Of a stretch of 64,000 nt of DNA, positions 2,862 through 43,366 are shown piece by piece. The notes below the pieces were generated by a model, which worked only from the letters and a program-made list of their open reading frames with translations, did not search any database and was not told the DNA's origin. Origin of the DNA: Gossypium raimondii (Eukaryota > Streptophyta > Magnoliopsida > Malvales > Malvaceae); assembly GCF_025698545.1 (NCBI RefSeq), contig NC_068565.1:186001-250000 (forward strand), given 5' to 3'. The translations under genes and the position numbers were made by a program. Positions within the stretch are counted from its first letter, which is position 1. Each line of letters starts with the position of its first letter.

Positions 2862-4169
2862 TCAAAAAGTTTCCAGTAGCATCCTGTTCATCTCTGTCGT
2901 TATTGTTTTCTGCACCCCTTCAAATATTTCTCGAGCCCCCTTGCATCCCTCACTGGAAAACAACCCTTTAAAGTAATCAATAGCAATCCGCATCAGATCA
3001 TCTTCCTTCTTCTTCATTGACCCATCTGCATCCTTTAATCCAACAATCCTATTTTTACGACGCCTACTCGAAGCACAATTATGGAAAAAACTAGTATTAC
3101 GATCTCCATATTTTAACCAATTCGCTCTACCCCATTGTTCCCAATATAACTCTTCCTTATCCATTTCTAAATTAAGCTCTAATTTGGTTTGAATCGTTGC
3201 CTCGATGATCTCATCTAAAGGTTCTTCCGCTGTCAAATTACGCAAACGCCTTGTTAAAATCTTCATAACCTCCACTCTTTCCTTCTTCAATCGACTTATC
3301 CACCTTTTCAGACCCTCCCCCATCATATTAAGCCTTTCAGGTATTGTCACATTTTTATTGGAATCCCACAAAGTTTTAACTTGCTCAAAACATGAATCTT
3401 CTAATAACCAAGCCGTTTCAAATCGAAACTGACCTCCCAACCTAGAGGAGTTGCCTGAGCCAATTGATAAATCAGTGTCCAAAAGTAAAGGGCAATGGTC
3501 TGAAATTGAATTATCTATATGAGTAAGACCGTAGGATGGGAAAATCTCAAACCAAGCTCGGTTCGCCACCCCGCTATCAAGACGTTCTCTAATATTTTTA
3601 ATCCCAAAATTTCTTCTTTCCCACGTATCCCAGCAACCATTGTACCCCAGATCCACTAGGTTACATTCTTCCAAAATAGACTGAAAAGCCTCCATCTGCC
3701 TATCATCCCGTAACCGACCTCCCTGTTTTTCTGAACTAAACAGAATCTCGTTAAAATCCCCTATAACAACCCAAGGAAAGTCGTTATTCACACCCAATTG
3801 TCGTAATAAGTCCCAAGATTCAAACCTCCTTCTGCTGTCAGGAATGCCATAGAACCCCGTTAGCCTCCATTTTGTACCATCCTCATTATTATCAACAACA
3901 GCATCAATATAATTTTCTGAAAAACCCAAATCAGTAACGTTCACCGTATTACACCAGCTCAAAGAAAGATCCCCTCTTGATCCCTGGGCTGAAACATCAA
4001 ACCCATTCACAAAACCATACTTTCTTCTTATCCTTTCCATCCTACTCCTCTCCACTTTCGTCTCCATAAAGAAGACAATTTGGGGATAATATTTTTTCAG
4101 CACATGCAGAACTCTCCGAACCGACCGTGGGTTCCCCAACCTGCGGACGTTCCAGCTAAAAATTTTCAT
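2862..4169 (-). CDS. LINE copy 1 ORF2, endonuclease part
   Basis: This is a 435-residue open stretch that starts at the natural ORF2 methionine. It shows the exonuclease-endonuclease-phosphatase signature motifs of LINE endonucleases: SWNVRRLG at the N-terminus, the metal-binding Glu in METK, TGFYGIP, GDFNEIL and SDHCPLLLD. The linker with WGRANWLKYGDRNTSFFH, which plant LINEs keep before the RT, follows. It ends at an in-frame TGA just before the RT begins. The endonuclease would nick target DNA for target-primed reverse transcription. All the signature residues I can name are intact here. Confidence 0.9.
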   Translation of the reverse strand: MKIFSWNVRRLGNPRSVRRVLHVLKKYYPQIVFFMETKVERSRMERIRRKYGFVNGFDVSAQGSRGDLSLSWCNTVNVTDLGFSENYIDAVVDNNEDGTKWRLTGFYGIPDSRRRFESWDLLRQLGVNNDFPWVVIGDFNEILFSSEKQGGRLRDDRQMEAFQSILEECNLVDLGYNGCWDTWERRNFGIKNIRERLDSGVANRAWFEIFPSYGLTHIDNSISDHCPLLLDTDLSIGSGNSSRLGGQFRFETAWLLEDSCFEQVKTLWDSNKNVTIPERLNMMGEGLKRWISRLKKERVEVMKILTRRLRNLTAEEPLDEIIEATIQTKLELNLEMDKEELYWEQWGRANWLKYGDRNTSFFHNCASSRRRKNRIVGLKDADGSMKKKEDDLMRIAIDYFKGLFSSEGCKGAREIFEGVQKTITTEMNRMLLETF

Positions 4170-40530: not shown

Positions 40531-42630
40531 ATGCGAACGCTTTGCGACGTTTGTGAGAGCGCCGCGGCGATCATTTTCTGTGCTGCCGACGAGGCCGCTC
40601 TTTGCCGTTCCTGTGACGAAAAGGTCTCTTCATTTTTCCCTCTAACTTTTCAGTACTAGTGATTAATCGATGAGTATCTATAGATATGTCCATAGTTTGA
40701 TTTATTTGCACACTTGTATTTGACTTGAAATTCTTGGAATTGAAATTAGTGAAATCATCTCAAGAGTTTTGTTAAAAAAATTAACAGTAATTTGATTAAA
40801 TGTGAATTTACTGGGAATTTTCAGGTTCACATGTGTAACAAGCTTGCAAGTAGACATGTGAGAGTTGGGTTAGCTGACCCCAGTGATGTCCCACGCTGTG
40901 ATATATGCGAAAATGCACCTGGTATGTATGTATGTATGTATGTATGCATGTATGTATGTATCAAGGCGAATCCGGGAAAATTTTAGTGGGATGGAATTGA
41001 ATTATAAATTTTTTAGATGTCAAAACTTATAATTTCAATATTTTTTATAGGACTAAAATGATTTTTTTTCCATTTTGGGGGGGCCAAAGGGAAAATTTAC
41101 CATATATAATTTTATAAATTTATTATTTATAGGGAGATTGAAAGGTTAACTTTCCATGGGGGCCAAGGTCCCTGCCTGCCCCCTAAATTTGCCCTTGTAT
41201 GCATGTATGGATGGATGGATGATTTGATTTCCTTTTTCTTATTGAGTAGTATAATTATTGTGAAAACATTTTCTTTTTTTGGAAATTTCTTCATTTGTTG
41301 ATTTGTGTATGTAGCTTTCTTTTACTGTGAAGTAGATGGCAGTTCCCTTTGCTTGCAATGTGATATGATTGTACATGTTGGAGGTAAAAGGACCCATGGG
41401 AGATATCTCTTGTTGAGGCAGAGAGTTGAGGTTTGTAACTCTTTTGTAGACTGTTTTTTTTCACTGTTTTAATGGTATGGTTGTCATCCCACTTCGGTAA
41501 AATCTGGGATTGCGTATGCTCTTTACATTCAAGTCAGCTTTAAGTTGGATTCCGTTATATTGTTGTTGTTGTTATTGCATGTTCGAGTTTATCACATGAT
41601 AGGCTATTATATTATCTGCATATGGAGGTTTTTACTGCAGCCAATTGGTTTTAGCCTGCCAAAGTTCTTCCCCTTTGTTGTAGTTTTCAGGGGATAAGCC
41701 TGCTCATTTGGAGGAACTCAGGTTGCAACCGGTTGATCCAAATGATGTAAGGAAGCCTACATCGGTTAAATCCGGGATTGCGTATGCTCTTTACGTTCGA
41801 GTCAGCATTAAGTTGGATTCCGTAATATTGTTATTGCATGTTCGAGTTTATCACACGATAGGCTATTATATTATCTGCCTATGGAGGTTTTTACTGCAGC
41901 CAATTGGTTTTAGCCTGCCGAAGTTCTCCCCCTTTGTTGTAGTTTCCAGGGGATAAGCCTGCTCATTTGGAGGAACTCGGGTTGCAACCGGTTGATCCAA
42001 ATGATGTAAGGAAGCCCACATTGGTTAAATTTGGGATTGCGTATGCTCTTTACATTTGAGTCAGTTTTAAGTTGGATCCTGTTATATTGTTATTGTTGTT
42101 ATTGCATGTTTGAGTTTATCACACTATAGGCGATTATATTATCTACCTATGGAGGTCTTTTACTGCAGCCAATTGGTTTTAGCCTGCCAAAGTTCTTCCC
42201 CTTATTGTAGTTTCCAGGGGATAAGCCTGCTCATTTGGAGGAACTCGGGTTGCAACCGGTTGATCTGAATGATGTAAGGAAGGACCAAAAATGGCAACCT
42301 AATTTTGCAGGGAGAGAGAACCAGCAAAATCATAGACTCTCTCTTGTTCCGGCGCTTGACGGTAATGGTGATGGAGATGGAAAGGTAGGTAATAAGTTGA
42401 TTGATCTAAATACCAACCCCCAACGGCTGCATGACCAGGCTTCAACGATTCAGGTATCGGTTTCCAAAGTTCTGTCCTTTATTTTTACTTGCTGTTTTTT
42501 CCAAAAACCTTATTAATTTGGTAATTGTTTCATGTTTAAGGAGCAAGCCATGGATGTTTCAAGTGACAATAATCATGACTCTGCAAGTGTGGTCCCTGTT
42601 GGATCCTTCAAAAGAGAGCCTGATAAATGA
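40531..42630 (+). CDS. BBX19: Double B-box zinc-finger protein, BBX19/BBX18 type
   Basis: The exons are 40531-40623, 40825-40921, 41315-41430, 42211-42453 and 42541-42630. They join in frame to 212 residues. B-box 1 (about residues 5-42, [14 protein letters not shown]...) and B-box 2 (about 56-93, [14 protein letters not shown]...) keep the Cys/His/Asp zinc ligands. There is no CCT domain, as in class IV BBX proteins. The C-terminal [10 protein letters not shown] motif matches Arabidopsis BBX19. These nuclear proteins act in light signalling and flowering by binding other regulators. Exon 4 ([16 protein letters not shown]...) is preceded by two further copies of its first 63 nt at 41684-41746 and 41943-42005. 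Each copy has a TAG acceptor and a GTAAGG donor in phase 0. Including them would add 21 or 42 residues without a frame change. The symbol is by similarity; BBX18 is the alternative. Confidence 0.9.
40922..40961 (+). repeat. (GTAT)n microsatellite at the BBX intron 2 donor
   Basis: The intron starts with about ten GTAT units, one of them GCAT. Most 4-nt steps therefore recreate a GTATGT donor consensus. Confidence 0.85.
41494..42280 (+). repeat. Three tandem copies of an intron 3/exon 4 segment in the BBX gene
   Basis: Units start at 41494, 41762 and 42021 (periods 268 and 259) with CGGTWAAATYYGGGATTGCG. Each contains intron sequence (GTATGCTCTTTAC, ATTGCATGTT, CCAATTGGTTTTAGCCTGCC), then the acceptor, the 63-nt exon module and the GTAAGGAAG donor. 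Units look more than 90% alike by eye, so the event is recent. The third unit is the one that reads on into the rest of exon 4. Confidence 0.92.
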
Positions 42631-42761
42631 TCTAGGTATTATCTCTGGCTTATGTTTGTTCACTTGTTAAAGAGCATTGCAAACATTTGGTTCTGAGGTT
42701 TTTTTTGTTTTATGGACATTTCCTGATACTTTTATATTATATTATATATATTTGAATGATA

Positions 42762-42935
42762 GAAGTACCATAAAGGCCCCTATACTAAGAGTTGGATTGC
42801 ATTTTGCCCCCTCTACTAAAAAAATAGGCAAATTAGGCCTTATACATCAGATCAAAGAGCAAACTGGTCATTCTATTAAAAATTCAATCAAATTTCTATT
42901 GTTAAAAACTGGTCCCTGTACGTCAACATGAGATA
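42762..42935. mobile_element. MITE-like element, family B, copy 4 (partial)
   Basis: The left half only: GAAGTACCATAAAGGCCCC, then GAGTTGGATTGCATTTTG, AGGCAAATTAGGCC and GTACGTCAACATGAGATAC. It stops at the family's midpoint. It lies just downstream of the BBX stop, possibly in its 3' UTR or terminator region. Confidence 0.65.
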
Positions 42936-43366
42936 CACTATCTCTCACATGAAAATGCCTTTTGCTTAAGGCATATCCCTTATTTTAGAAAATAAAATGC
43001 CTGTGATCTAAAATTGATAAAGTGTGCAAATAATTAATTGGATTGCCCAAGCAGATTTACTTTCTTTCACATGAAAATGCCTTTTGCCTAACGCATTCAT
43101 TATTTTTTTCCCTTAGAGCTCAATATGTTATGTTTGATGAACTGTAATCGACTAGTAGGGGAAAGAAAAAGAATGTTAACATTGTCATATTTGGTGGATT
43201 TTTTTTGTATTAGTCTGTTGGGATCATATTTGTTCTGAATGACTTTGGAAATTGTTAACTGATGTGAACTATGAATTTAGAAATGAAATTTTCTTCACCG
43301 TTGTCAATCTCGATGAAGTCAGCTTGACATGATTGCAGCTACTGTGTGGGTTAAATCACTATTTGG

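Follow-up and report, generated by a model that had tools for sequence, protein, structure and literature searches.

A tandem triplication across an intron/exon boundary in a BBX19-type gene of Gossypium raimondii may supply two new introns and two optional exons

In a double B-box gene of the cotton Gossypium raimondii, the end of the third intron and the beginning of the fourth exon stand three times in a row. Do the two additional copies serve as optional exons, or are they idle intron sequence? We addressed this question with the whole stretch of DNA around the gene (the window: 64,000 nucleotides, C1:186001-250000, on contig NC_068565.1) and with the genome that contains it (750,779,957 bases in 281 contigs). 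Positions count from the first letter of the window, all features of the gene lie on its forward strand, and a slash within a motif marks a splice site or a junction.

If the extra copies are left out, five exons join in frame into a predicted protein of 212 amino acids. These are exon 1 (40531..40623, from the ATG at 40531 to the start of B-box 1), exon 2 (40825..40921), exon 3 (41315..41430, with the end of B-box 2 and the donor GAG/GTTTGT), exon 4 proper (42211..42453, 243 nt), and exon 5 (42541..42630, with the stop codon). Comparison with paralogues supports these exons: exon 1 is 93 nt long in the five paralogues that we traced, exon 4 is also 243 nt long in the paralogues on C13 and C11, and exon 5 is also 90 nt long in the paralogue on C13. 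The sequence-only reading of this DNA had called it a BBX19-type gene with a second B-box, and indeed the longest predicted form (254 amino acids) contains two zf-B_box stretches (PF00643, E 8.9e-13, which passes the Pfam cut-off). A CCT domain is absent among the three Pfam matches of this form with E up to 0.1. We tentatively take the gene to be BBX19 rather than BBX18. Searches with the 212-residue protein gave no confirmed relative in microbial and viral contig collections, and plasmids gave no match.

Tandem Repeats Finder reports one tandem array at 41488-42282 (period 259, 3.0 copies, 90% matches, score 1322), and a second, separate repeat search recovered the same array. From the repeat searches, the alignment, and the junctions, it consists of unit A (41488..41755, 268 bp), unit B (41756..42014, 259 bp, with a 9-bp deletion in its intron part), and unit C (42015..42282, 268 bp). 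Each unit holds the tail of intron 3 (196, 187, and 196 bp in A, B, and C) followed by 72 nt of exon 4, that is, a 63-nt block plus GTAAGGAAG. The tandem triplication at the intron 3/exon 4 boundary is real. The sequence-only reading had the three copies right, but it began the array at 41494 and gave the repeated part of the exon as 63 nt. Both internal unit junctions read GGAAG/CC in the alignment, and private substitutions and three indel events distinguish the units. Such identical junctions would fit one original duplication, after which unequal exchange or a further round of slippage took place. Outside the array, a 44-bp direct repeat (42931-42974 and 43053-43096, 86% alike) starts about 300 bp past the stop codon.

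A protein search of the genome gave 73 matches, many of which are other B-box genes, and we compared the six closest gene copies: two on C13 and one each on C2, C11, C12, and C10. Exons 1-4 were traced in five of these and exon 5 only on C13. All six copies have a single exon 4 start, with one unit, so for these closest paralogues the specificity of the array to this gene within its own genome is supported. In the five traced paralogues intron 3 measures 83-97 nt; here it runs for 253 nt to the first acceptor (41431..41683), or for 780 nt if the third acceptor alone is used. The nearest paralogue, on C13, has five exons of identical length, also encodes 212 amino acids, and is separated from this gene by a dS of 0.32-0.38. 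Because each of the six copies has a single unit, the triplication looks like a gain in the C1 gene after its split from the C13 paralogue.

The second copy on C13 (C13:2503000-2508500, at about 3140-3740 of that region) is truncated at its 5' end and lies about 7.5 kb from the complete copy; the 5.5 kb region that we read around it showed neither exons 1-2 nor the beginning of exon 3. The C10 paralogue (L030, 451-453) has ATC in place of the ATG start and an exon 4 that ends in a stop, and it is possibly a decaying gene. A further B-box match (C1:275772-275975, reverse strand) lies outside the window, about 47 kb away and on the strand opposite to this gene.

Where did the intron part of the unit come from? 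Up to the first acceptor, intron 3 is 170 nt longer than in the C13 paralogue (253 vs. 83 nt), and a stretch at 41452..41650 (borders approximate) has no clear counterpart in the C13 intron. A genome search with the intron part (query 41431-41660) matched the three units alone, at one candidate locus. Within the window, 41488-41660 has just two matches beyond the units, of 19-20 nt each. We rejected a transposon origin of the unit because its intron part matches only the three units; very common words are passed over in that search, so a high-copy element is only partly excluded. We also considered that the array begins on its left where a foreign insert begins, and dropped this idea because similarity to the C13 intron ends earlier in the alignment, at about 41452.

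The copies also bear on when the array arose. Their intron parts differ from each other at 12/187, 17/195, and 18/186 sites (6.4-9.7%), and the corrected distances (A-B 0.067, A-C 0.093, B-C 0.104) are about 0.2-0.3 of the dS between the C1 and C13 genes. With intron differences of 6-10%, the array is not very recent, and the earlier description of it as recent stands only in a relative sense. An ancient polyploidy occurred in the cotton lineage about 60 million years ago. If the C1/C13 pair dates from that event, then the array would be about 10-20 million years old and common to many cottons.

We then come to the splice sites. The three units have acceptors at 41684, 41943, and 42211, and in all three GAT/GTAAGGAAG closes the 63-nt block, as the sequence-only reading had noted; the acceptors and the GT donors of units A and B are intact. 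In unit C the same GAT/GTAAGGAAG is coding (Asp-Val-Arg-Lys, where GTAAGG encodes Val-Arg) and lies inside exon 4 proper, at 42273/42274. Both C13 copies have GAA GTA AGG AAG at the equivalent coding position, and GTAAGG is missing at the equivalent position in the C2, C11, C12, and C10 paralogues. Since GTAAGG is coding in unit C and in both C13 copies, the candidate donor is coding sequence that is older than the duplication. On this comparison, the candidate donor GAT/GTAAGG is exon 4 coding sequence turned into a cryptic 5' splice site. The module had been described as a copied phase-0 exon. Its phase is indeed 0, but it is not a copy of an exon: the unit spans the boundary, its donor is the coding GTAAGG, and the native donor of exon 4 (42453) lies outside it.

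By its computed pairing, the strength of GAT/GTAAGG as a donor is moderate. It has a T at position -1, which none of the 20 donors of six annotated family genes has (19 have G and 1 has A). Its fixed-register U1 energy (-1.0) is better than that of 7 of these 20 donors, and 16% of the 6026 GTs in the window equal or beat it by the same measure. A GT at 41886, within the potential new intron A-B, outscores it (-2.8 vs. -1.0); joined to the acceptor of unit B, it would give an intron of 56 nt. Such an intron is short for a plant.

If these sites are used, the array contains a potential exon 4a (41684..41746; 63 nt or 21 residues; acceptor TTGTTGTAG, donor GAT/GTAAGG), a potential new intron A-B (41747..41942, 196 nt), a potential exon 4b (41943..42005; 63 nt or 21 residues, with acceptor and donor read in the sequence), and a potential new intron B-C (42006..42210, 205 nt). 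The four inclusion combinations are all predicted to be open and in frame, as claimed: 212 amino acids with neither exon, 233 with 4a, 233 with 4b, and 254 with both. The stops that had been described for read-through were confirmed as well. Past the donor of copy 1 there are 69 open codons and a stop inside copy 2, and past the donor of copy 2 there are 17 open codons before the stop. Including both exons would divide the 780-nt intron into introns of 253, 196, and 205 nt, all of them T-rich (36-44%).

We propose that a segment across the intron 3/exon 4 boundary of this BBX19-type double B-box gene was duplicated in tandem and that further expansion then produced three units, whose junctions are identical. 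Both upstream units would have inherited the pyrimidine tract and the 3' splice site of intron 3, and the coding GTAAGG of exon 4 would have become available there as a cryptic 5' splice site. Two new introns (of 196 and 205 nt) and two in-frame 63-nt exons could arise in this way. The spliceosome would take the acceptor of unit A, which is nearest to exon 3, use GTAAGG as the donor, and join it to B or C, so that the mRNA gains one or two 21-residue linker blocks directly after B-box 2. Of the readings that we weighed, we lean towards this one, in which a tandem duplication of the boundary put a cryptic coding donor to work and some mRNAs include 4a, 4b, or both. Some use of the extra exons in mRNA is likely. 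For the protein, the effect is probably a tolerated extension of the linker: identity to the C13 paralogue is 14/21 in the unit C block and 54/89 in the tail, as against 99/102 in the B-box part, and a linker that varies more than the B-boxes probably tolerates additional blocks. Published exon counts could agree with such a gene. Cotton DBB Group II genes generally have 5 to 7 exons (PMC12787989) and GhBBX genes have 3 to 7 (PMC8196430), and 5 + 2 exons would match these maxima; neither text, in the parts available to us, names this gene, and exons in untranslated regions could also explain the numbers.

Alternatively, units A and B might be dead intron sequence, with exon 3 joined directly to 42211 to give an ordinary 212-residue protein. 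We consider this possible but rather unlikely. The moderate donor with its T at -1 would fit, as would the fact that the single form has the same length as the C13 paralogue. The substitutions are also compatible with it, as the extra blocks are without significant constraint. Among the three copies, 4 of 63 exon columns and 23 of 186 intron columns are variable (p = 0.24, with ten gapped intron columns excluded), so exon variability is about half the intron rate and the difference is non-significant. Private changes in A and B alone give 2/126 in the exon and 12/372 in the intron (one-sided p = 0.27). Copy A carries two amino acid changes, at a rate close to that of its intron (2/63 vs. 5/186). 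When the changes are polarized with the C13 paralogue, copy A shows replacements of Pro by Ser and of Gly by Arg, copy C one of Pro by Leu, and copy B no derived change at the sites where the copies differ. In a neutral simulation, both extra copies stayed intact in about 36% of cases; its rates come from few events, any indel counts as breaking, and only AG, GT, stops, and indels are checked. Because intactness is this frequent under neutrality, it is weak evidence for use, and these comparisons are compatible with selection on the extra copies as well as with its absence (p = 0.24). What argues against dead intron sequence is the splice sites: there are three near-identical acceptors, that of A is the nearest to the exon 3 donor, and we saw no sign that A and B are weaker than C.

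It is also conceivable, though we think it improbable, that the extra acceptors mainly yield unproductive mRNA and that the triplication lowers or tunes output via nonsense-mediated decay. The read-through stops of A and B lie 497 and 394 nt upstream of the last junction. Furthermore, the acceptors are paired, with a 7-nt shift: TAG/TTTTCAG/ in unit A (41684..41690) and TTTCCAG in units B and C (41943..41949 and 42211..42217). In each of the nine combinations that we computed, splicing to the distal site brings in a premature stop, 185-292 nt upstream of the last junction. A private change of copy A, at 41721, creates CAG/GTTGCA inside the block; used as a donor, this site would end translation prematurely in the two combinations that we computed. 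There may be a parallel in Arabidopsis, where the BBX19 isoform AT4G38960.4 lacks 7 nt, has a premature stop as a result, and rises 2.6- to 6.5-fold in upf mutants (PMC5306368). By analogy, the Arabidopsis loss is possibly at the same site as the tandem acceptor here, which occurs three times; if so, then a splicing switch has been copied three times. This matching of positions is our own. The main text of that study gives no sequence for the missing 7 nt and counts the exon concerned once as the 6th and once as the 5th; besides the 7-nt loss, the isoform has a different 5' end and includes a portion of the third intron (PMC5306368). In the cotton genome, the distal CAG is present in four paralogues and absent from the C2 paralogue and the truncated C13 copy, and this patchiness speaks against strong general conservation. 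In-frame 63-nt exons seem at least equally easy to make, and a strong loss of output should have met negative selection over the age of the array. A combination of the two ideas, in which three TAG/TTTYCAG/ decay switches in series and optional 21-residue blocks together would set the amount and the length of this regulator of light and flowering, with a setting that may differ from one cotton line to another according to the number of units, is speculative, and we give it little credence.

False expansion of the array during assembly is very hard to credit, as the copies differ by the substitutions counted above and by indels, which is above the expectation for haplotypes or sequencing errors. 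We also considered mutually exclusive exons controlled by competing RNA structures and rejected them: the one inverted pair reported within 40800-43200 lies outside the array.

The duplication with a cryptic coding donor, which we favor, closely resembles a known case in potato. In the available text on the potato RdRp intron, a tandem duplication over an intron/exon boundary activated a GTAAG, as shown by 106 junction reads (PMC4974935). There, as here, the unit combines the 3' side of an intron with the 5' side of the next exon, the 3' splice signals are inherited, the 5' site is (here, would be) an exonic GTAAG, exonic sequence is added, and the copies differ by point changes. In contrast, the potato gene carries two copies with a single new intron, its splicing was shown, and related species were compared, whereas the cotton locus has three copies and two possible new introns and is known from the sequence of one genome. 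Two other models are related but differ as we understand them. In the AGGT model of Rogers and in ATP2A1 (Rogers 1989 and Hellsten et al. 2011, as described in PMC4974935), an intragenic tandem duplication also supplies the splice sites of a new intron, but what is duplicated there is an exonic segment with AGGT, and the peptide stays as it was, while here the 3' site existed beforehand and the peptide would grow. Tandem exon duplication (Kondrashov and Koonin 2001, as cited in PMC2674458) likewise produces in-frame, exon-like blocks that are optionally included, but here the duplication took in no complete exon together with its native donor. What we found is the content of a boundary duplication: a unit of intron and exon sequence, a 5' site in coding sequence, and single-unit relatives in the same genome; the donor at 42453, which a complete-exon duplication would include, is outside the unit. 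The locus is a candidate for a further case of intron gain by boundary-crossing tandem duplication, here twice. Among the papers listed in our literature searches, no title or opening of an abstract describes the array.

If the extra copies are spliced, then this gene would be another plant case with the potato RdRp layout and a GTAAG donor, with two new introns in series, and it would offer a natural system for asking how a hexamer of coding sequence turns into a splice donor. In Arabidopsis, BBX19 affects flowering time (PMC5306368), so the different lengths of the cotton product would be open to testing for an effect.
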